NCBI RefSeq assembly: GCF_000469665.2
Contig: NZ_AWTR02000065.1
Location: 1-34,643 of the forward strand
DNA: 34,643 nucleotides
Reading direction: 5' to 3'
Source: Holospora obtusa F1
GTDB lineage: Bacteria > Pseudomonadota > Alphaproteobacteria > Holosporales > Holosporaceae
Every line of letters begins with the position of its first letter. Within the stretch, counting starts at the first letter, position 1. A model generated the notes under the pieces. That model was not told where the DNA came from, searched no databases, and was given only the letters and a program-made list of their open reading frames with translations. Positions 2 through 12,654 of the stretch are shown piece by piece. Both the position numbers and the translations under genes were made by a program.

Positions 2-625
2 TTTTGGCTGTCCTGAAAAAAATACAGGTCCCCATTCAAACCTTCCTTGAACAGGAAGATGATTGCAGATGTGCCAAAGCGCCAAATCTACCAAATTAGA
101 AAGGATAGAAGGGCGCATAACTGCCATATCTTTAGCTATGGGGTTGAGTAGCGTCATTTCTTTGAGAGCGTCTTCTTCTAACGTAGAAAACTCTCGAGCC
201 TTACTAGAGCTCATAAAAGACCAAGTAATTGCCTCACCTAAGCCATGATGCACCAGGTAAGCGCATGCATCGCGAATGCGTTGGTGAAGAAGAGAAAATT
301 TAGGAGAGCAAGCAGACAATAGAGGAGGGGTTGAGGGCACCTCTTGATACCAACCACCAAATCTCAAAATTTCTTCAATCAGATCTGGTGTTTCTTCGAT
401 ATCTTTGCGAAACTGCGCTGGAACAACATGCATAATTTCGTCTTCTTTCTCAATTTGAGTGCGAACTCGACACCCTAAACGTACTAAACGTTTACTCATT
501 TCTTCTACTCCTAAATTCGTACACCCTGTGAAATTTTTAAAATAATTTACAGAAAGATGGATTTCAGAAGATTTTTTTGCAACGTAAGGTTTAACTGTGT
601 GAATATTAATTTCTGAAAATCTCAT
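2..625 (-). CDS. pheT: Phenylalanyl-tRNA synthetase beta, C-terminal piece (partial)
   Basis: This is the continuation of PheT in the same frame as the upstream piece (626-1795). It opens with an ATG directly after the TGA that ends that piece, and is cut by the window edge after about 208 codons. The translation starts MRFSEINIHTVK and runs into a B5-like domain (SVNYFKNFTG to RLVRLGCRV, about residues 27-60) and then the start of the synthetase core (LIEEILRFGGWYQEVP, later GLGEAITWSFMSSSKA). PheRS beta pairs with alpha (PheS) to charge tRNA-Phe. No Shine-Dalgarno sequence precedes the ATG, so if it is translated separately it depends on termination-reinitiation from the first piece. It could equally be reached by stop-codon readthrough. 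No further stop occurs before the edge, so it still looks under selection. Confidence 0.85.
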   Translation of the reverse strand, partial: MRFSEINIHTVKPYVAKKSSEIHLSVNYFKNFTGCTNLGVEEMSKRLVRLGCRVRTQIEKEDEIMHVVPAQFRKDIEETPDLIEEILRFGGWYQEVPSTPPLLSACSPKFSLLHQRIRDACAYLVHHGLGEAITWSFMSSSKAREFSTLEEDALKEMTLLNPIAKDMAVMRPSILSNLVDLALWHICNHLPVQGRFEWGPVFFSGQPK

Positions 626-628
626 TCA
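626..628 (-). other. In-frame TGA followed directly by ATG inside pheT
   Basis: On the minus strand the bases read ACA TGA ATG AGA, with both halves of pheT in the same frame on either side. The stop falls at the junction between the B3/B4 and B5 domains, a place where a two-piece protein could still fold. A sequencing error, nonsense mutation, suppressed stop or true gene split would all give this picture. Confidence 0.85.
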
Positions 629-1795
629 TGTTAACGCTTGAATAAGATGATTCTTGACTTCCGCCCCATCTATTCCGCGCTCAAATATTTTTCTTGAATG
701 CGTCATGAGCAAAGCTTTTTGTCCTGTAAGACTTATCGTTTTTGGATCAAATTCTGCCGCTTCAACGCATAACAGCGTACTAGAGGGCTGATACTTTGAA
801 GAATCTCCCCCCAAAATACCGCTTAAGGCCAAAATTCCTCCTTCATCTTTCAATACGATCGAACCACAAGGAATTTGAATAACTTTTGCTGGATCTTCTT
901 TGCAGGAAAGCGCGGTAAAACACGCTGGGTCTTTAAGCTGATCAACGACTAAAGGAGACTTTAGAGTGCTTCCATCAAATACATGAAATGGCGTTCCAAA
1001 ACAATGCGTGTAATACGACAAAGCGTCCACAACATCGTGGCACAAAGATTTTTGAATATTTTTTAGGCGACGTTTAACCCATGCTGGAGCGCAGTACGGA
1101 TTCTTAGAGTGGCGTTGAACCTGAGCCATATGAAACTGATAACATAAATCCGTTTCTACGCGAATTTCATGTACAGGGAGAGTGGTGAATGTTGCTTGAG
1201 AAAGGGGGTGTGGCCAAATAACATCTTTCCAGTGCGCCGCGTTCAAAGCAACTAGCTCTCTTGCTATACCAAAAACACTCATCAAGTCTCCTCGGTTAGG
1301 TGTTACTTCGCAATCGAAAAGCCAATCTTTTGGTAACACACAAGCAAGAGTTTTACCAAGAGCTTCAGAAGAAGAAATTTCTAAAATTCCTTCTTCTTGG
1401 TTTTCAAACACTCCCTCAAGGTTTAATTCTTTTTCAGAACACAGCATTCCTGAGCTTTCTATTCCACGAATAATTGTTGGTGAAAGCGAGTAAGCGTTTC
1501 CTGGAAGACGTTGACCTGAGCGAATTAAAACCACCAGCATTCCCAAACGCACATTAGACGCGCCACACACGACCGTAATAGGCCCTTGCTGTGTGCTGAC
1601 TGTACACAAATTTAGACGCTGAGCGTTGGGATGTGCTTCTATTTTTTCTATCTGAACGATTTCTAAATCTTTTAAATCCGAATACAAGTCGAAAACTTGG
1701 GTCTCAGTTCCACTTTCCGTAAGACGACGAGCCAACCCTTCGGGGGTTTCTCGGGGAATTACAAAATCTTTAAGCCAAGACCAAGTGAACTTCAT
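626..1795 (-). CDS. pheT: Phenylalanyl-tRNA synthetase beta, N-terminal piece ending at in-frame TGA
   Basis: The 389-residue product covers the front of PheT, which is normally about 800 residues. It has the opening MKFTWSWLKDF, the OB-fold tRNA-binding domain (about residues 40-150; LEIVQIEKIEAHPNAQRL, VVCGASNVR) and the B3/B4 region (about 200-370) with IFERGIDGAEV. It stops at TGA (626-628) after LIQALT. Relatives carry a Gly-Gly here (pattern L-x-G-G), so a single GGA to TGA change is the simplest origin. Trp is written TGG throughout this gene, and neighbours use TGA as a true stop, so general recoding of TGA is unlikely. The gene starts at ATG with no obvious Shine-Dalgarno. pheS, the usual upstream partner, is not present; the adjacent DNA is gene-poor. 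Confidence 0.9.
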   Translation of the reverse strand: MKFTWSWLKDFVIPRETPEGLARRLTESGTETQVFDLYSDLKDLEIVQIEKIEAHPNAQRLNLCTVSTQQGPITVVCGASNVRLGMLVVLIRSGQRLPGNAYSLSPTIIRGIESSGMLCSEKELNLEGVFENQEEGILEISSSEALGKTLACVLPKDWLFDCEVTPNRGDLMSVFGIARELVALNAAHWKDVIWPHPLSQATFTTLPVHEIRVETDLCYQFHMAQVQRHSKNPYCAPAWVKRRLKNIQKSLCHDVVDALSYYTHCFGTPFHVFDGSTLKSPLVVDQLKDPACFTALSCKEDPAKVIQIPCGSIVLKDEGGILALSGILGGDSSKYQPSSTLLCVEAAEFDPKTISLTGQKALLMTHSRKIFERGIDGAEVKNHLIQALT

Positions 1796-3253: not shown

Positions 3254-5953
3254 ATGGATAAATTAAATGCTCAGGCTTTAGAAATTGTTTGCGTTCCTGT
3301 AGAAGAAGAAATTCAACGATCGTACCTTGATTATGCCATGAGCGTTATCGTGGGGCGTGCGCTCCCTGATGTTCGAGATGGCTTAAAGCCAGTACATCGT
3401 CGTATTTTGTATGCTATGGAAGTGTTAGGATTTCGTCATGATCGTCCGCACAGAAAATCTGCAAACGTTGTAGGAGAAGTTGTTGCAAAATACCATCCTC
3501 ACGGAACAGATCCTATTTACGGAGCTTTGGTTCGTATGGCTCAGTGGTTTTCTATGAGAGAAAAGCTCGTAGATGGGCACGGAAATTTTGGATCTATGGA
3601 TGGAGATCGTGCTGCTGCTATGCGTTACACCGAAGCCCGGTTAAGCGCATTGTCTGATTTTATATTGGCGGATTATGATAAAGAAACAGTAGATTTTCAA
3701 CCTAATTATGACGACACTCAAAAAATGCCCGTCGTGTTACCTGCTGCGTTTCCAAATCTTCTTGTCAATGGAGGAAGCGGAATTGCAGTAGGTATGGCTA
3801 CAAATATTCCCTGCCATAATTTATCGGAAGTTTTGGATGCATGTTGTCTGCTATTAGATCAGAAAGATGCTGAGTTAGAACACATCATGAAAGTGTTACC
3901 TGGTCCAGACTTTCCCACAAAGGGCATCATACTAGGAACAAAAGGAATAGAAGAGGCATACCGAACTGGAAAAGGGACATTTTTAATTCGCGGGCAAGCA
4001 CAGGTAGAGCCGTACGGAAAAGATCGGGAGTGCATCTTGATTACCGATGTTCCTTACCAAGTGAACAAAGCTGTTTTAGTCGAGCGCATCGCAGAGTTAG
4101 CGCGAGAAAAAAAAATTGAAGGGATGTCAGAAATTCGAGATGAGTCTGATCGATCAGGTGTTCGAATTGTGATTGAACTCAAGAAAGATGCTGTGGCTCA
4201 GGTCATATTAAATCAGCTTTATGTGTTAACCGATTTACAAATTTCTTTTTCGGTCAACATGCTGGCGCTTCATCGCGGGTACCCAGTCCAGCTTTCTTTA
4301 ATGGAAGTGTTAAAGGCTTTTTTGGAATTTCGAAAAACAGTTGTTGTACGCAGAACTCAATACTATCTACGCAAAGATAGGGAGGCTATTCGAAATTTAA
4401 TTGGGATTTATATAGCGATTTCTCATATTGATGAGGTCGTAGAATTAATTAAATCTTCTAAAGATCGAGATGAAGCTCTTAGAGCATTAATTGCAAAAGT
4501 GTGGCAGATAGACAGCATGATTTATCAGTACTTAGCGTTGCTGGAAGACCAGAATGTGAATATGCAAGATTTGTCACAATATCATTTATCTCAAGAACAA
4601 GCTTCTGCGATTTTATCATTAAGACTTCATAGACTGACTGGAATGGAAAAGCAAGAACTTTCTAATCAGTTAGAAAAATTAAAAATAAATATTCAGTATT
4701 ATTTAGAGCTTTTAAGGGATGATCTTAAAATTGATGCGTTGATGAAGGAAGAATTTTTGCATATTAAGCAAAAATTTGGTTCTCCACGTCTTACAGAATT
4801 GCAGAAAGAGTATTTTCAACAGTCTCCAGAGGATTTGGTTGCGTGTGAGGATATGGTTGTAACGGTCAGTGTAAATGGATACATTAAGCGCGTACCTCTA
4901 GATGCTTACCGAAGTCAAAAACGGGGAGGTCGTGGAAAAAATGCAATGGATGTTAGAGAAGAAGATGCGGTCTGTCAGATTTTTGTTGCCGATACGCATC
5001 GACCTTTACTATTTTTTACTTCGAAAGGCATTGCCTATCAAATGAAGGTCTACGAACTTCCTTTAGGAACGACGTCTTCTCGTGGAAAACCTCTGATCGC
5101 ATTTTTTCCTTTAGAACGAGATATCGAGAAAATCGCTACTATTCTTCCGCTACCTAAAGAAAATATTCCTCCTTTTATTGTTTTTTCGACTTCTCAGGGG
5201 AATGTTAGGAAAAATGCGGTTTCAGATTTTTTTACTATTCGGGCGAACGGAAAAATTGCTATGAAATTGGACGATGGAGAGCAACTCATTCGTGTTGTAT
5301 TGGCGGATGATAATCAAGATATTTTACTTTCCACGCACCAAGGAAAAAGTTTAAGATTTTCTGTGCAAGAGTTGCGTCAATTTAATAGTCGAAATTCCAC
5401 TGGAGTTAGAGGAATCTTACTAAAACCAAAAGATTACGTCGTTTCCATGACGTTATTAATGCATACACTTTGGAGCGCCCAAGAAATTGAAGCGTACATG
5501 AACAGAAAAGACGAGCAATTTTTAGATGCGTCATTGCCTCTTAATCAAAATACTATTGTGTATTCTGATGACGATGAAGCTCTCAAAGCCCGATTTAAAG
5601 AAATGGAAGAGAAAGAAGAGTTCGTTTTATGTGTAACTATGAAGGGAGTTGGTAAGCGTACATCATCTTATGAATATCGTAGAGCGCATAGAGGGGGACA
5701 AGGAGTTGCAACGATGGAGATTACGTCTCGAACTGGTGCAGTAATTCAGGCAATGCCTGTGAAAGATCAGGATCAAATCTTGATGTTGACGAGTTTAGGT
5801 CAATTATTGCGTTGCCCTGTCAAAGATATTCGTATTTCAGGAAGAAGAACTCAAGGTGTTCGCGTATTTCGTTTAGATAAAGGAGAGACCGTGGTTTCTG
5901 TAGCAGTGGTTTCATCAGAAACTATTGATACTTCAGAGGAATTAGCAGAATAA
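3254..5953 (+). CDS. gyrA: DNA gyrase subunit A
   Basis: An 899-residue GyrA, the DNA-breaking subunit of gyrase, which introduces negative supercoils with GyrB. Visible: the N-terminal motif RALPDVRDGLKPVHRRILYAM, the catalytic Tyr at residue 125 (AAMRYTE), VNGGSGIAVGMATNIP, and a C-terminal beta-pinwheel whose first blade carries the GyrA box as QKRGGRGK (about residue 556), which separates it from ParC. The quinolone region is unusual: HPHGTDPIYG, so the positions equal to E. coli Ser83 and Asp87 are Asp86 and Gly90. The pinwheel also has an acidic insertion (about 770-790). A Shine-Dalgarno (AGGT) lies 7 bases before ATG. It follows rpoZ by 65 bases. Confidence 0.96.
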   Translation: MDKLNAQALEIVCVPVEEEIQRSYLDYAMSVIVGRALPDVRDGLKPVHRRILYAMEVLGFRHDRPHRKSANVVGEVVAKYHPHGTDPIYGALVRMAQWFSMREKLVDGHGNFGSMDGDRAAAMRYTEARLSALSDFILADYDKETVDFQPNYDDTQKMPVVLPAAFPNLLVNGGSGIAVGMATNIPCHNLSEVLDACCLLLDQKDAELEHIMKVLPGPDFPTKGIILGTKGIEEAYRTGKGTFLIRGQAQVEPYGKDRECILITDVPYQVNKAVLVERIAELAREKKIEGMSEIRDESDRSGVRIVIELKKDAVAQVILNQLYVLTDLQISFSVNMLALHRGYPVQLSLMEVLKAFLEFRKTVVVRRTQYYLRKDREAIRNLIGIYIAISHIDEVVELIKSSKDRDEALRALIAKVWQIDSMIYQYLALLEDQNVNMQDLSQYHLSQEQASAILSLRLHRLTGMEKQELSNQLEKLKINIQYYLELLRDDLKIDALMKEEFLHIKQKFGSPRLTELQKEYFQQSPEDLVACEDMVVTVSVNGYIKRVPLDAYRSQKRGGRGKNAMDVREEDAVCQIFVADTHRPLLFFTSKGIAYQMKVYELPLGTTSSRGKPLIAFFPLERDIEKIATILPLPKENIPPFIVFSTSQGNVRKNAVSDFFTIRANGKIAMKLDDGEQLIRVVLADDNQDILLSTHQGKSLRFSVQELRQFNSRNSTGVRGILLKPKDYVVSMTLLMHTLWSAQEIEAYMNRKDEQFLDASLPLNQNTIVYSDDDEALKARFKEMEEKEEFVLCVTMKGVGKRTSSYEYRRAHRGGQGVATMEITSRTGAVIQAMPVKDQDQILMLTSLGQLLRCPVKDIRISGRRTQGVRVFRLDKGETVVSVAVVSSETIDTSEELAE

Positions 5954-6426
5954 ACAAAAAAAGTGTAGCTCAAAGCGATATCAAATGAATAGTTCGTGTG
6001 TTTTGAAAAAAGTCTAAATGCTGCTTCTTTTATTTGCTTAAGTTTTCTTGTGTTCCTTTGTGTTTAGTGAGGATCAGGCCTTGGGTGAATTGAAAAACGG
6101 TACAGCAGTGTATATCCCGAAATTACACATGTTTCGGGAGTTATGAAAACGCAAACTTTGTCACCTTCCTGCTGCTTGAGAAAAGTTATTGGGGGTGAAT
6201 TAGATGCAATTTTTTTTGTTATACTGAAAGAAAAATGATAGAAATAAGTTATGTTTTGGTATATTTTTAGTTTTGATCAACATATATTAAAATATGCTTC
6301 TGATCTAAAACTTGGTAAAAGTTAAAAAAATACGTACTTACGTTTAGAGACTTTTATTTAATGAGATGTACAAACATTCTATCTAATGAATTTTTTATTA
6401 CTTACTGAATGCACAAATTTTTTTCA
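5954..6426. other. Intergenic gap with two overlapping mini-frames and a repeated motif
   Basis: No recognisable gene. Two short coding-like frames overlap by ATGA: 6048-6146 (TTG start, 32 codons, containing ALGELKNGTAVYIPKLHM) and 6143-6238 (MKTQTLSPSCCLRKVIGGEL onward, 31 codons). They may be the remains of one gene. The pairing CCCGAAA (6116-6122) with TTTCGGG (6132-6138) is inside the first. Bases 6198-6235 are similar to 22383-22418. Confidence 0.4.
6198..6235. repeat. Dispersed intergenic repeat, copy A
   Basis: A 38-base AT-rich segment beginning AATTAGATG, with GTTATA in the middle and ending GAAAGAAAAA. A similar 36-base segment occurs at 22383-22418 in another intergenic gap; by eye they differ at four positions plus a 2-base length change in a T run. 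Confidence 0.45.
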
Positions 6427-8136
6427 CTATTTTTTATATGTAGTTTTAATTTTTTTTTGTGTGCCTTGGGTCAACGCTGTGCATAAAATTTTTGTATTAT
6501 ATTTCATGATGCTGACATAACTTTCTCCAAACGGCAAATCGTCAATACATAAAGGATCTGCTAATTTGACTTTTAAGTCCTGAGCTAATTGGCGAGCTCC
6601 CTCGTAATTATGACTGTGTTCTGGAAAAATTGCGCAAATATTAAGTTTTTTTAGCCCCATTAAACATTTTCCTTGTGCTTCTCTAGATTCAGAAAGCGCG
6701 TATAATTTTACACCGTAACGATTTTGATAATGCGGCATAGAGTTGTGAAATACTAGTCCTGAAGCTGTTTTACGTTTTTCCCATTGTGTTGCAATCCAGG
6801 TGTCTAATTTATTAAGAGTGTTGATGTATGCGCAGGCATAATGTTTAGTTGTGTCCTCTGGATACAGTTCAAAAACTGTTTTAGAAATGATTTTAACGTA
6901 CTGAATAACGTAATAAGGATCGTGCCAAACATGGCCATCAGAAAATAGCTCATCGTAAAAGTTTTTTCTTGATTTATCAAATTTTTTTTTAGGAGTAATT
7001 TTTTCTGAAAGAATTAAAATTTTTGCGTTAGTTTTTAATGATTTTAAGATCGGTAACCATTGTATATCAATTCCTTTACCATGAAGAATAATTAAACTTG
7101 CATTAGAGATGTTTTTGATTGCCCTTGCATTACAAGGAAAATGGTGTAAATGAGTATGATTTTTTTGGGTGTTTCCTGATATGACCTCAATTTTATAATT
7201 TTTGGGTAATAATTTTTCTGTAATATGCTTTAATAGAAAAGAGGAAGTAATAATATAAGGTCGCTGTATTTGTGCATAACAAGAAAAAGAACACACAAGT
7301 AACAAACGCCATAGATAAGGAAGCTTTATTCTGCTATAAATTAATGCGCTTGCGTATCCTGCGCCTAAAATAATTAACAATGTGGGTCCATACGGCAGAT
7401 CTTTATAACAGGATAAAAATAGCGAAAATAAGGTTGCGCATAAATTCCAAAGTGCAGATTTCCAAAAAATGTGTTTAAGGTGCGTTCCGGAAACATAAAA
7501 GCTCAAAAAGGGCAAAACAGTCAATCCTAAAATAACCAAAGATCCCATACCTTGAAACTGAACGGCGACATTTAATACAAATAATGCGAGCCATCCTTTA
7601 TAAATCCAGCGCATTTTTGGGTAAGCTCGATAGGAAAATTCTGCATCAAAGCTATGCGCTTTTAAATCATTCCAAAAATAATGGCAAAAGAGCGCGGATC
7701 CCACTGTGCATCCAGTCAAGACGTACACATAACTTTCTGGTACAATAAATATGGAGCCAAAAAATGCGTGCATTAAATCATCACTACCTCCAAAAAACAT
7801 GCTGATTGCAATAGCTAATAAGTAAATTCCTGCTATACTGCTATTCATATCTAAGGCTTTATGACGTGATGTCCATAACGTAATTGCTGTTAAAAAAATT
7901 CCTGATACTGCCCCCATAAGGCTTATCGTCCACCAAGGACCGTTTATTTTCATTCCCAGTGTAATGCCTGGTAACATTCCGTGAGAAAGTGCGTCTCCTA
8001 AAAAAGCTGTTCTCCCAGACATTAAAACAGATCCCATAAGAGCGCATAAAATAGATGATAACAAACACAAAATAATTGCGCGTTGCAAAAAAGGATGACA
8101 CAGTACAGGTGCTATAAAAGAAAAAAAAAGAGACAT
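6427..8136 (-). CDS. Metal ABC transporter: fused ABC-3 permease and ZnuA-like binding protein
   Basis: About 569 residues and two proteins in one. Residues 1 to about 270 form an ABC-3 family (ZnuB/MntB) permease with many membrane helices and the family motif DALSHGMLPGI. A last hydrophobic segment (LWRLLLVCSFSCYA, about 275-290) leads into a ZnuA-type solute-binding domain (about 292-560), placing it in the periplasm. The binding domain keeps candidate metal ligands: a His cluster (HTHLHHFP), HVWHDP, FHNSMPHY and ADPLCIDD. These fit Zn2+, Mn2+ or Fe2+; which one cannot be told. Free binding proteins are the norm. No ATPase (ZnuC) gene is in the window, so it must be elsewhere. ATG at 8136 is preferred over a TTG at 8142 because AAAGG lies 7 bases upstream. 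sfsA lies 75 bases upstream on the same strand. Confidence 0.88.
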   Translation of the reverse strand: MSLFFSFIAPVLCHPFLQRAIILCLLSSILCALMGSVLMSGRTAFLGDALSHGMLPGITLGMKINGPWWTISLMGAVSGIFLTAITLWTSRHKALDMNSSIAGIYLLAIAISMFFGGSDDLMHAFFGSIFIVPESYVYVLTGCTVGSALFCHYFWNDLKAHSFDAEFSYRAYPKMRWIYKGWLALFVLNVAVQFQGMGSLVILGLTVLPFLSFYVSGTHLKHIFWKSALWNLCATLFSLFLSCYKDLPYGPTLLIILGAGYASALIYSRIKLPYLWRLLLVCSFSCYAQIQRPYIITSSFLLKHITEKLLPKNYKIEVISGNTQKNHTHLHHFPCNARAIKNISNASLIILHGKGIDIQWLPILKSLKTNAKILILSEKITPKKKFDKSRKNFYDELFSDGHVWHDPYYVIQYVKIISKTVFELYPEDTTKHYACAYINTLNKLDTWIATQWEKRKTASGLVFHNSMPHYQNRYGVKLYALSESREAQGKCLMGLKKLNICAIFPEHSHNYEGARQLAQDLKVKLADPLCIDDLPFGESYVSIMKYNTKILCTALTQGTQKKIKTTYKK

Positions 8137-8211
8137 AAACAAACCTTTGGTTAAATGATTATCTGAAGTTAGTTTTAAAAGTTATTTTATCAAGCTCAAT
8201 GCATTAAGTAA

Positions 8212-8949
8212 TTACAATGTCTGCCAACGTACGCCACCTATGCTTAAAGGCACGCAATCAAGTGTAATTTCTTCAAAAGACATTTTGCACTTATAAGCCA
8301 ACATCGTGACCCCTGCTTTATATGCTGTTTCAAAGGCGCTTCCATATTCTGAATCAATGAATCCTGCTATTTGAAATGCAGAGCAATCATGGCGTTGTAC
8401 AACGTAAATCATTGTAGCTCTCTTACCTTGTTGCGCAAGTTGTGTCAAAATATGCAAGTGTTTTGTTCCTCTTTGAGTAACGCAATCTGGAAACAAAGCT
8501 ACATGATGATGCGTGAGATGAACATTTTTGACTTCAATCCACATAAAAGAATCGTTGGAAAATGTTAGCAAAAAATCTAAACGGGAAGATCCTATTTTAG
8601 GTTCAGCTTTAAAACTTTTTAGATGTTTCCATTCAGGAAATTTTTCTTCTGTCAACGCTTCTTTGATCAAAATACTGGGAATGGATGTATTTGTTCCCAC
8701 CAGGGTTGTTTGTGTTATGTGTGCTTCTTGTACCTCTTCCATCATCCAAACAAAGGGCAGTTTTCCTAAAGATTCAGGCTTTTTAGAACATACCCACACA
8801 TGAGAGCCTGGATGAGTCAGTCCTAACATTGCGCCGGTATTCACACAATGTGCCGTGACTTGCTCTCCATTTTCTAGTTCAATATCAGCGAAAAAACGTT
8901 TGTATCGCCGAATCAGCGTTCCTCTTTGTGGAGGGGTCCAAAATTTCAC
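8212..8949 (-). CDS. sfsA: SfsA family protein (sugar fermentation stimulation)
   Basis: A 245-residue protein of normal SfsA length. Recognisable parts: the N-terminal OB-like segment (LIRRYKRFFADIELENGE, VTAHCVNTGAMLGL) and the nuclease-like core (PKIGSSRLDFLL, WIEVKNVHL, FPDCVTQRGTKHLHIL, FIDSEYGSAF). SfsA was named in E. coli as a DNA-binding factor for maltose genes; the fold suggests a nuclease, and its real role is unclear. The start is GTG. In many alphaproteobacteria sfsA sits beside map; here they remain neighbours but are divergent, separated by about 570 bases. Confidence 0.93.
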   Translation of the reverse strand: MKFWTPPQRGTLIRRYKRFFADIELENGEQVTAHCVNTGAMLGLTHPGSHVWVCSKKPESLGKLPFVWMMEEVQEAHITQTTLVGTNTSIPSILIKEALTEEKFPEWKHLKSFKAEPKIGSSRLDFLLTFSNDSFMWIEVKNVHLTHHHVALFPDCVTQRGTKHLHILTQLAQQGKRATMIYVVQRHDCSAFQIAGFIDSEYGSAFETAYKAGVTMLAYKCKMSFEEITLDCVPLSIGGVRWQTL

Positions 8950-9462
8950 GTAACGATTTTTATTACCTTATCTTTAATAAAGTATATGCTAAAGATTATC
9001 TAATGTCATGAGGACCAACAAAGATTATAAGTCCTTTTTTCAAAAAAAATTCTCTCTTACAAAGGGGGATAAATTTTAGAATAGCTATGGATGCATTGAT
9101 TTTATTATTTTAGGCGTTGAACGTATTTACGATGAACTCACGGAAAAAATATTAAGTATAGAGAGTTATTCATCAAAAATTTACTCATATATCATGAAAA
9201 GTGGTAAAAATCAGAACATTTTGATTTCTATTTTGGGGAGAGTTCCTAATGAGGTTCCATTCAAGAGAGCAGGGGTATTTTAAGCTATAAATTTCGCCTA
9301 TAAGTAAAATAGGTTTAGGTTTATGAAGATATGTATGATTATCCAGAAGAAAACGCTAAGGTGTATATCCTAGATTTTATACAAGGGATGTTGTAATAAA
9401 ATTTTTACTCCCATGTGATATCGATCTAATTTTTTTAAATAAAAATTGCATATAAAAAAACA
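8950..9462. other. Gap with coding-like but broken frames
   Basis: No intact gene. A 67-codon open stretch without a good start (9080-9283; contains ILGVERIYDELTEKILS) is followed in another frame by 9319-9396 (VYEDMYDYPEENAKVYIL). Their composition looks like protein rather than noise, so a decayed gene is possible. No family was recognised. Confidence 0.3.
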
Positions 9463-9490
9463 TTGACATTTTATGTATAGATATTATACA
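9463..9490 (+). promoter_or_regulatory. Sigma70-type promoter for map
   Basis: Consensus TTGACA (9463-9468) and TATACA (9485-9490) with a 16-base spacer. Transcription should start near 9497, about 23 bases before the map ATG. It is one of the best promoter matches in the window. Confidence 0.7.
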
Positions 9491-9519
9491 ATTTCGAAAA
9501 GTTTATTATTTATTTTTTC

Positions 9520-10284
9520 ATGAGCTGGAATAAAAAAATTCCAATTTATAAAGATCCTGAAGCTTGGAAGGGAATGCGAGATGCTGGTCAGCTGGCTGCA
9601 AAAGTTCTGGATATGATTGGTCCCTATATAGTTTCTGAAGTTTCGACGGCTTCTCTCAATCATTTGTGTCATGAATATATTGTGGATCATGGTGCATTTC
9701 CTGCTCCATTAGAGGTTGGATTTCCTTGTGCTGTATGTATATCTGTTAATGAAACTGTTTGTCATGGAATTCCTAGTGAGCGCAAATTACATTCAGGAGA
9801 TATCGTAAATATAGATGTTTCTTTACGATTAAATGGTTGGTATGCGGACACTGCTCGCATGTTTTATGTTGATTCTCCTGAAGATTCTGCAAAAAAATTA
9901 ACTGATATTTGTTATCAAGCCTTGATGGAATCGATAGGCATTATCAAGCCAGGCGTGACTTTGGGGGATGTTGGGCATCTCATTCAAAAAAAAGTCGAAT
10001 CTTCTGGATTCTCTGTGGTTCGAAATTTTTGTGGACATGGAATCGGTCGAAAATTACATGACGCGCCGGAAGTGTTGCATTTTGGAGCGCCAAAAACCGG
10101 GTTAGTTTTAAAAGAGGGAATGTTTTTTACTATAGAGCCAATGATTAATATGGGAAAATCTGGAGTTCGATTATTAAAAGACGGGTGGAGCGCTGTAACC
10201 AAAGACGGAACGTTATCTGCGCAATGGGAGCACAGTCTTGGCGTAACAACAACAGGATGTGAAATTTTTACGCTTTCTAACTAA
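9520..10284 (+). CDS. map: Methionine aminopeptidase, type I
   Basis: A 254-residue enzyme that removes the initiator Met from new proteins. All five dimetal ligands of the pita-bread fold are seen: Asp99 and Asp110 (NIDVSLRLNGWYADTARMF), His173 (FCGHGIGRKLH), Glu206 (FTIEPM) and Glu237 (AQWEHSL); the substrate His is His82 (CHGIP). The length is normal for type Ia without the N-terminal zinc-finger extension. It has its own promoter, a short leader without a clear Shine-Dalgarno, and a terminator shared with the converging aspC. Confidence 0.97.
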   Translation: MSWNKKIPIYKDPEAWKGMRDAGQLAAKVLDMIGPYIVSEVSTASLNHLCHEYIVDHGAFPAPLEVGFPCAVCISVNETVCHGIPSERKLHSGDIVNIDVSLRLNGWYADTARMFYVDSPEDSAKKLTDICYQALMESIGIIKPGVTLGDVGHLIQKKVESSGFSVVRNFCGHGIGRKLHDAPEVLHFGAPKTGLVLKEGMFFTIEPMINMGKSGVRLLKDGWSAVTKDGTLSAQWEHSLGVTTTGCEIFTLSN

Positions 10285-10314
10285 AATTAAATTTTTTATA
10301 ACGTTTCGTATGCT

Positions 10315-10354
10315 AAAAATTTTGTCGATTTATTATTTGATCGACAATTTTTTT
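10315..10354 (+). terminator. Bidirectional rho-independent terminator between map and aspC
   Basis: An 8-bp stem TTGTCGAT (10322-10329) with ATCGACAA (10340-10347) and a 10-base loop is followed by seven T and preceded by an A run. It can therefore end map on the plus strand and the aspC operon on the minus strand. Confidence 0.8.
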
Positions 10355-10419
10355 AGATATACTTTTTAAGTTTATTTTTCTAAGTTTCAAAAAATATAGC
10401 AGAGAATGTTCTTTTTGTT

Positions 10420-11628
10420 CTAACAGATCTTTAAAAAATTTTCTATTTGAGCAACACCTTCTTTTATCACATCAATTGAAACGGCGTAAGAAAATCGAAG
10501 ATATCCACTTTTTCCAAATTCAGACCCCGGAACTGTACATACTTGCATGTATTGTAGCATTCCTTCTGCAAGCTCTGTGTCAGTTTTCCAACCTAAACCA
10601 CAAATTTTCGGATGCGCCAACAACTCTAAACACGGATAAAATACATAAAACGCACCTTCAGGACATTTAAGCGCTTCTCCACCGGGTAGTCGTTTTAATG
10701 CTTTCATCAAAACATCTCTTCGAGAGCTAAAAATTTGTCGATTTTTATTTAAGTATGACTCAATCTCTATCGTATTTAAAGCATGTTCTACACTTTTCTG
10801 AACCAGACAACACGAACCTGATGTGCTATGTGATTGTATTTTTTCCATGGCTTCAATCAAGCTATCAGGTCCTATTCCCCATCCCAATCTCCAGCCTGTT
10901 GCGGCCAAAGATTTAGAAATTCCATTAACTACTAACATACGAGACTGAAGTTCTGGACACACATGTAACAAATGTGGGCAAAGAACATGAGTATACGACA
11001 AAGATTCATAAATATCGTCGGATAAAATAAAAACAGAAGGAAACTTCATTAATATCATTGCAAGTTCATACAATGTTTGTGTATCATAAACGGTTCCCGT
11101 AGGGTTATTGGGGGAATTCAAAATAAGCCATTTGGTTTTGTGCGTAATTGCTCGCTCTAGCTGATCTGATGTTAGCTTAAAATCATTGTGTGCTTCACAA
11201 GGTACAAAGACTTGGCGAGCCTTGGCTAATTCTACAATAGCTGGATAAGAAACCCAGTAAGGACTGGGGATAATGACCTCATCAGATGTTTCTAAACTTG
11301 CCATAAGCGCATTATAGATAACTTGTTTTGCCCCCGTAGAAACACAAACCTGCCGAGCAGTCCATCCAGATAAATTTTGATATTTTTCAGTGTACTTCAG
11401 AATACTGTCTTTTAAAGGGAGCGTTCCAGAAACTGGAGTATATGTGTGAGCCTTAGATTTTATCGCATTTAACGCTTCACTAAACAAAACGTCAGGGGGA
11501 AAAAGATCTGGCTCTCCTACGCTGAAATCAAATACTTTATATCCTTGATTTTCTAAAAATTTTGCTTTCTTAGACATCTGCAACGTAGCAGAAGGCGCTA
11601 ACTTCGAAACAGTATTAGATATGATCAT
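10420..11628 (-). CDS. aspC: Aspartate aminotransferase, class I PLP enzyme
   Basis: A 402-residue fold-type I aminotransferase interconverting aspartate/2-oxoglutarate and oxaloacetate/glutamate. The PLP lysine is Lys239 (NGISKSLAATGWRLGW); other landmarks are FSVGEPD, YTPVSGTLPLK, the phosphate loop CVSTGAKQ, NSPNNPTG, the cofactor Asp in SDDIYE and the carboxylate Arg in GYLRFSYA. It belongs to the 1-gamma subgroup common in alphaproteobacteria, in which some members also accept prephenate. It lies 19 bases after the HAD gene, so the two form an operon. It may link aspartate to the malate/pyruvate metabolism shown by the malic enzyme. Confidence 0.93.
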   Translation of the reverse strand: MIISNTVSKLAPSATLQMSKKAKFLENQGYKVFDFSVGEPDLFPPDVLFSEALNAIKSKAHTYTPVSGTLPLKDSILKYTEKYQNLSGWTARQVCVSTGAKQVIYNALMASLETSDEVIIPSPYWVSYPAIVELAKARQVFVPCEAHNDFKLTSDQLERAITHKTKWLILNSPNNPTGTVYDTQTLYELAMILMKFPSVFILSDDIYESLSYTHVLCPHLLHVCPELQSRMLVVNGISKSLAATGWRLGWGIGPDSLIEAMEKIQSHSTSGSCCLVQKSVEHALNTIEIESYLNKNRQIFSSRRDVLMKALKRLPGGEALKCPEGAFYVFYPCLELLAHPKICGLGWKTDTELAEGMLQYMQVCTVPGSEFGKSGYLRFSYAVSIDVIKEGVAQIENFLKIC

Positions 11629-11647
11629 AAAATTCGAGCGTGTTTAT

Positions 11648-12256
11648 CTAAAATTCATTTCTATCATACAAAAAAATACAGCGTTTTCCAACACACTGTT
11701 TTTGAATAACATGAGAAAAATAAGCTGAAGGATTCAAAGCAACTACACTATGTGCCTGATTCCACACAAAAATATCTTTTTGACTATCTCCAAAATAATA
11801 GAACTTTTCTTTTCCATAACGATCTGTCAGTGCTTTTGCTTTCACAGAGCCCACACAATGAACGTTTTGTGTGCTACTGATGATGAGATCAAAAAACTTC
11901 AAATGCGTATTAATGGAACAAGCTGTAGGATAAGCTGCGCCTGTTGCAAGTACTAAGGGAATATTTTTTTCTTTGCAAAGTTGAAGAAAATCTATTAAAA
12001 AAGGACGATAGGGAATTCGCTTTGGATCTAAGCAATACTTTTGGCTGATCTTCCATTTAAAAGCTGCCCAGGAGCGAGTTTTCAGTAACTCAAAAATACT
12101 TAAAAAAGCTTGTGGAAAAAAAAAATACAAAGAACTGGTTCGCAGTAACGTGAAATCCAAATCAATACATACAGGAAAAAAATTTTGATCTAACGACAAC
12201 GCTTTAAAAAGCTCCTGGGGGGAAGGTCTATTCAAAGCTAATACTTGAGAATTCAT
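11648..12256 (-). CDS. Stand-alone HAD phosphatase domain of the HAD-UbiA type
   Basis: A 202-residue HAD-superfamily protein. Motif I is IDLDFTLLRT (Asp32, Asp34; a Phe replaces the usual Gly), motif II is the Thr in LATGA, motif III the Lys in GSVKAKAL and motif IV YFGDSQKDIFVW. Sequence and order resemble the N-terminal half of proteins in which a HAD domain is fused to a UbiA prenyltransferase, but here the protein ends just where UbiA would start (RCIFLYDRNEF). It is either a truncated relative or a free phosphatase; its substrate cannot be told. A good Shine-Dalgarno (GAGGT) sits 5 bases upstream of ATG. First gene of an operon with aspC. Confidence 0.8.
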   Translation of the reverse strand: MNSQVLALNRPSPQELFKALSLDQNFFPVCIDLDFTLLRTSSLYFFFPQAFLSIFELLKTRSWAAFKWKISQKYCLDPKRIPYRPFLIDFLQLCKEKNIPLVLATGAAYPTACSINTHLKFFDLIISSTQNVHCVGSVKAKALTDRYGKEKFYYFGDSQKDIFVWNQAHSVVALNPSAYFSHVIQKQCVGKRCIFLYDRNEF

Positions 12257-12654
12257 AAAAACCTCAATCTTAAATGTGTTGAAAAAATACGTTTACGTAG
12301 ATATTAAGGTGATTCATGAGTAAAGGACATTTTATGTGTAGAGAAATTTTACGCTAAAATTTTTTATTTTGCAAATTTGAACTGATTTACTGAATTTTCT
12401 ATATAAATTGAATAATCAGAAATAAAAAAATGTGATTTAATTGAAATAATAAAAAAAATAAATTTATATATTTTATATACGTTTTTAATTTTTGAGAGGA
12501 GAGTTTATTTTTGTGAGGAATCACGTATTAATAAATTTATTTTTTTCGAAACGATTTTACCTTATAAAAGAAATACATAATTTCTAAAAAAATTTTGCTT
12601 TTTATTTTCATTTTATTTTGTACAATGGCTTTGTTGAAAGCAAACAGAGTAAAA
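12257..12654. other. AT-rich gap between divergent genes
   Basis: About 400 bases between the HAD gene (minus) and the MazG-like gene (plus). Very AT-rich; both promoters should lie here, but no clear consensus pair was found. In-frame upstream starts of the next gene (TTG 12595, ATG 12625) fall inside it. Confidence 0.4.

Follow-up and report, generated by a model that had tools for sequence, protein, structure and literature searches.

A putative, recent fission of the PheRS β subunit gene at an in-frame TGA-ATG in Holospora obtusa

Holospora obtusa is a macronuclear symbiont of Paramecium caudatum. The window analyzed here, 34,643 nucleotides in length, is one entire contig (NZ_AWTR02000065.1) of the draft genome of strain F1, which comprises 1.33 Mb in 91 contigs and is about 89% complete. 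On its minus strand, this contig carries, among other genes, a 571-residue reading frame (6427–8142) in which an ABC-3 metal permease (residues 16–267) is fused to a ZnuA-type binding protein (residues 297–553). At the contig's beginning, likewise on the minus strand, lies pheT, the gene for the PheRS β subunit, which runs from position 1795 to the contig end at position 1 and whose sole interruption is a TGA codon at positions 628–626 (Table 1). Upstream of this codon, 389 codons are open (1795–629), encoding PheT residues 1–389 and ending in NHLIQALT. Directly behind it, and in the same frame, an ATG (625–623) opens a second reading frame, which extends over 208 codons (625–2) to the contig end and whose predicted product begins with Met-Arg-Phe-Ser (N-terminal sequence (M)RFSEINIHTVKPY).

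The products of the two reading frames align with consecutive parts of one pheT model, matching positions 1–379 and 402–581, respectively, of the 798 positions of the TIGR00472 profile. Neither passes the profile cut-off of 402.65 bits singly; taken together, they present the tRNA_bind, B3/4, B5 and CLM domains in order along one pheT profile, as in bacterial PheRS β. According to Pfam, the B3/4 domain ends at residue 387, two residues before the TGA, and the B5 domain begins at residue 22 of the second part. The initial annotation had described a pheT gene broken by TGA-ATG, with both sides open in one frame and the break at the border between B3/B4 and B5; the reading frames and the domain limits bear out this description.

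Table 1. Elements of the interrupted pheT gene, in window coordinates
Feature	Position	Strand	Basis
First pheT reading frame: PheRS β residues 1–389 (B1, tRNA-binding/EMAP, B3/B4) plus TGA	626..1795	-	TIGR00472 1–379; Pfam tRNA_bind, B3_4
B3/4 domain, with two residues between its end and the stop	635..1129	-	Pfam PF03483, residues 223–387
In-frame TGA at the Trp392 (TGG) position of H. undulata and H. curviuscula	626..628	-	Codon alignment; one TGA within the match to intact PheT
ATG adjoining the stop (Met393 in relatives), proposed reinitiation start	623..625	-	Sequence; ATG conserved in both relatives; no Shine-Dalgarno motif
AGA (Arg) in place of the Gly found in 46 of 49 relatives	620..622	-	49-sequence alignment
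Second pheT reading frame: first portion of the C-terminal half, with B5 and part of the catalytic-like module; truncated at the contig end	2..625	-	Pfam; TIGR00472 402–581
B5 domain, complete, within the second reading frame	353..562	-	Pfam PF03484

A second pheT copy had been considered as one way in which the cell might obtain an intact PheRS β. When the assembly was searched with the full-length PheT of Holospora undulata, however, the protein matched in one place only, and no other copy was found. This match stops at residue 600 of 800. The C-terminal end of pheT was found nowhere else in the 1,328,112 of 1,334,837 assembly bases that were searched; the assembly has a gap where the last 200 residues would be encoded. 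Gene order 3′ of pheT is not conserved and so gives no measure of this gap. The pheS gene is intact and is located on another contig. An intact pheS together with the lack of a second pheT in the assembly indicates that the cell needs the split gene.

The nearest relatives, H. undulata HU1 (70% identity in the pheT part) and H. curviuscula NRB217 (~63–64%), each have an intact, single-copy pheT, so that a comparison of close relatives, as proposed with the initial annotation, did not reveal the same split. When pheT was aligned by codons with 29 relatives, the TGA fell on Trp392 (TGG) of both H. undulata and H. curviuscula, and the ATG right after the stop was common to these two species; in a 49-sequence alignment, most sequences (46 of 49), those of the more distant relatives, had Leu or Met in the stop column. 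As both Holospora relatives carry TGG at this position, the change is most simply explained by one transition, TGG to TGA. The initial annotation had instead placed the stop on a conserved Gly (GGA to TGA), an assignment that these alignments refute: the nearly invariant Gly (46 of the 49 sequences) is situated two codons 3′ of the stop and has itself been replaced by Arg (AGA) in H. obtusa. Among 95 nearly invariant positions in the stretch of pheT that is present, only this site and position 227 depart in H. obtusa alone among the three Holospora species. A Gly-to-Arg exchange two codons past the stop is as would be expected if the joint were no longer a covalent turn. Conserved residues are kept on both sides of the break, which lies just before B5, the arrangement known from the split pheT of Altiarchaeales (see below). 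In the H. curviuscula genome, we also observed a gene run (G002:C1, L232, positions ~5200–12400) that is 83–90% identical to H. obtusa and contains several in-frame stops, its pheT being only ~63% identical; this run looks like recently exchanged or mobile DNA in decay.

AlphaFold modeling of the intact H. undulata PheT (mean pLDDT 85.5) makes Trp392 the final residue of a helix spanning residues 379–392, the last helix of B3/B4; a loop (residues 393–396) and a strand (residues 397–404) follow. Since Trp392 ends this helix in the model, the first part of the H. obtusa protein is predicted to keep its last helix nearly whole, and the second part to begin in the loop before B5.

Comparison of H. 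obtusa with H. undulata yielded a dN of 0.205, a dS of 2.12 and a dN/dS of ~0.10 upstream of the stop, and a dN of 0.232, a dS of 1.84 and a dN/dS of ~0.13 downstream of it, with dS near saturation in both parts. These values point to similar purifying selection on both halves. In addition, the 598 pheT codons present contain no frameshift and no further stop. Low dN/dS and the lack of decay fit a gene that is still in use, but also an error or a stop of very recent origin. A single base change can create a stop in these codons in 258 ways, of which only seven (2.7%) yield a stop with an ATG immediately behind it, two of the seven at the stop-site Trp. Neither a random error nor an arbitrary nonsense mutation would often hit such a position, here moreover the domain joint, although the 2.7% figure is a hint only, because it was computed after the site had been picked.

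Several explanations would dispense with a two-part protein, and two of them turn on how UGA is decoded. A change of the genetic code, by which UGA would specify Trp throughout H. obtusa, is suggested by the TGA occupying a Trp position; it is scarcely conceivable, and the initial annotation had already deemed it unlikely. At Trp positions matched to H. curviuscula proteins, 270 TGG codons stood against a single TGA, that of pheT; the count table omits rare codons, and the list of stops contains pheT alone. This refutes a code change within the sample (59 query frames from the 229-kb H. curviuscula reference, non-overlapping, with ~17,000 aligned residues). Moreover, TGA ends 277 of 968 H. obtusa reading frames (~30%), RF2 is intact and has the SPF and GGQ motifs (in an alignment from which the H. 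undulata row was left out), and none of the 36 tRNA genes of the assembly encodes a tRNA with the anticodon UCA, a suppressor tRNA, for which the initial annotation had proposed a search, or a selenocysteine tRNA; the features of translation table 4 were thus not found. A tRNA-Tyr is also absent among the 36 genes, most likely due to gaps in the draft assembly. Alternatively, the stop may be real and be bypassed, if misreading of UGA by the ordinary tRNA-Trp(CCA) is frequent enough to yield a supply of full-length PheT that carries the ancestral Trp. We consider this improbable, albeit much less so than a code change. Given that the stop replaced Trp rather than Gly, near-cognate misreading of TGA in place of TGG would give the right residue back. 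The base after the TGA is an A, which in E. coli makes for a leaky context; in H. obtusa, this context is not special, because TGA followed by A ends 48 of 141 long TGA-terminated reading frames. In Bacillus subtilis, a UGA reporter was read through at 6% when RF2 was normal, and a low dN/dS is retained by many bacterial genes that contain in-frame stops (PMC7918605). However, the forms of tRNA-Trp known to read UGA have a 4-bp anticodon stem, A9C or G24A (PMC13092985), and none of these was found in the one H. obtusa tRNA-Trp, which has the anticodon CCA and a 5-bp anticodon stem and has kept A9 and G24. An RF2 with both motifs likewise speaks against readthrough, which would in addition leave the ATG behind the stop and the Gly-to-Arg change unexplained. 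A-to-I editing of the UGA was set aside, as to our knowledge no bacterial editing enzyme has a target that resembles the pheT stop site.

The main rival to a genuine split is an error of sequencing or assembly, or a polymorphism present in a minority of the sequenced population; the living symbiont would then have TGG and an ordinary PheT. We regard this explanation as unlikely, yet as one that carries real weight. In a draft genome, a nonsense codon that interrupts an essential single-copy gene is suspect from the outset, all the more with the contig end 626 bases from the stop and the remainder of the gene missing, and with relatives that are intact and a protein that is conserved on either side of the stop. 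An error would fall at random, however, whereas the observed site directly adjoins an ATG (the 2.7% class above), coincides with a domain joint and lies beside an unusual Gly-to-Arg change. The sister species H. undulata HU1 was sequenced by Illumina at 4,016x average coverage by the same group that published H. obtusa (PMC3751619); consensus substitution errors are rare at this depth, which is the figure for H. undulata and not for H. obtusa. The public H. obtusa reads are those of DRP001203 (named in PMC5911502). Still another explanation would take pheT for a dying gene, a pseudogene at this locus, with PheRS supplied by the host or by a second copy that escaped assembly. An assembly that is ~89% complete and lacks the gene end, and from which tRNA-Tyr is missing too, is compatible with this idea, but we hold it to be very improbable: the assembly shows no sign of a second copy and the gene no other lesion, selection on the second half matches that on the first, pheS is intact, and pheT is intact and single-copy in both H. 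undulata and H. curviuscula.

By analogy with the Altiarchaeales split at the same joint, and given a stop before an ancestral ATG in an inter-domain loop, we favor a two-part protein. In the H. obtusa lineage, one transition would have turned the Trp392 codon of pheT from TGG into TGA. Because the next codon is the ancestral in-frame ATG, and because the site is the loop between B3/B4 and B5, pheT would thereby have become a two-gene unit without a gap. Ribosomes would terminate the first part at the TGA, and a fraction of them would restart at once on the ATG. The N-terminal piece (B1–B4) and the C-terminal piece (B5 to the end) could then assemble together and with PheS into a working PheRS, to which a little full-length PheT, with Trp reinserted by tRNA-Trp misreading UGA, may contribute. 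We infer four points of this scheme for living cells, namely that the stop is present, that ribosomes restart, that the pieces assemble and that the assembly is active. A recent fission that gives rise to a two-part PheRS β via termination-reinitiation, perhaps with some UGA readthrough, falls in our estimate just short of an even chance. The more specific proposal, that this bacterial PheRS β represents a natural fission of an essential enzyme that is only one mutation old, occurred at the Altiarchaeales pheT joint and was rescued by reinitiation on the adjacent ATG, is a tentative one, which we would place somewhat below even.

The geometry of the site is consistent with reinitiation. With a spacing of 0 nt in the same frame, the TGA-ATG lies within the stop-start range of about −8 to +10 nt for termination-reinitiation pairs (PMC10666635). 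In E. coli, reinitiation is most pronounced for a start that overlaps the stop or almost adjoins it, and in three native gene pairs a stop-start distance of 2 nt cost 5, 20 and 70% of reinitiation, respectively, compared to the native overlap (PMC10666635). Among gene pairs spaced this closely, those encoding subunits of the same complex are overrepresented (PMC10666635, PMC6728339). No Shine-Dalgarno motif precedes the restart ATG in H. obtusa, where 216 of 361 long ATG-started reading frames are likewise without one. Other observations weigh against a fission. Neither relative has the split, which is hence a one-off without evolutionary confirmation. The second half is present only up to the contig end, with the last 200 residues in the assembly gap. 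Moreover, the signal of purifying selection may just date from before the stop, if the stop arose very recently.

In a wider survey of 290 sampled genomes of the class, no stop inside PheT was found among the best-scoring matches listed. One alphaproteobacterial genome, listed as 100% complete (G038:C86, L304 2600–2690), has a pheT frameshift within ~10 residues of the same site. We rejected it as a second alphaproteobacterial pheT split: the frameshift arises from 13 extra bases that resemble an imperfect duplication and is likely an assembly fault, perhaps from two strains joined. In a genome of the same genus (G143), pheT is intact.

For essential multi-domain proteins, gene fission is usually observed only long after it has been completed. 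If the proposed fission in H. obtusa is true, it would have been caught at its first step, with intact sister species for comparison, and it would make it easy to test whether a stop placed immediately ahead of a start suffices to make one essential protein two. It would further suggest that, in bacteria as in Altiarchaeales, the B4/B5 joint is a place where PheRS β can be divided. Automatic annotation may label such a gene a pseudogene.

The closest known counterpart is the pheT of Altiarchaeales, which is split just before B5 into two loci; the split is backed by reads and several assemblers, its authors take the split protein as functional, and according to their 2016 paper no such pheT split was present in any other sequenced genome (PMC4975002). 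As in H. obtusa, PheRS β there is in two pieces, cut just before B5, with nearly all conserved residues kept. The Altiarchaeales case, however, is archaeal, involves non-adjacent loci and is read-supported in several genomes, whereas the H. obtusa case is bacterial, with adjacent parts in one frame divided by one stop, in the assembly sequence of one genome. The LeuRS of Aquifex aeolicus and the AlaRS of Nanoarchaeota (cited in PMC4975002) also are synthetases whose normally single chain is made as two polypeptides, but these other enzymes, unlike H. obtusa pheT, represent old, fixed fissions into separate genes. With translationally coupled gene pairs (PMC10666635, PMC6728339), the locus shares a stop and a start that are a few bases apart; the usual pairs overlap (ATGA, TGATG) and use different frames, whereas the TGAATG of H. 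obtusa has a distance of 0 nt, stays in the same frame and could stem from one nonsense mutation. Finally, bacterial genes with in-frame stops (PMC7918605) resemble H. obtusa pheT in having one stop, no other decay and a low dN/dS. Readthrough has been proposed for those genes; the H. obtusa stop interrupts an essential single-copy gene and stands directly before an ATG.
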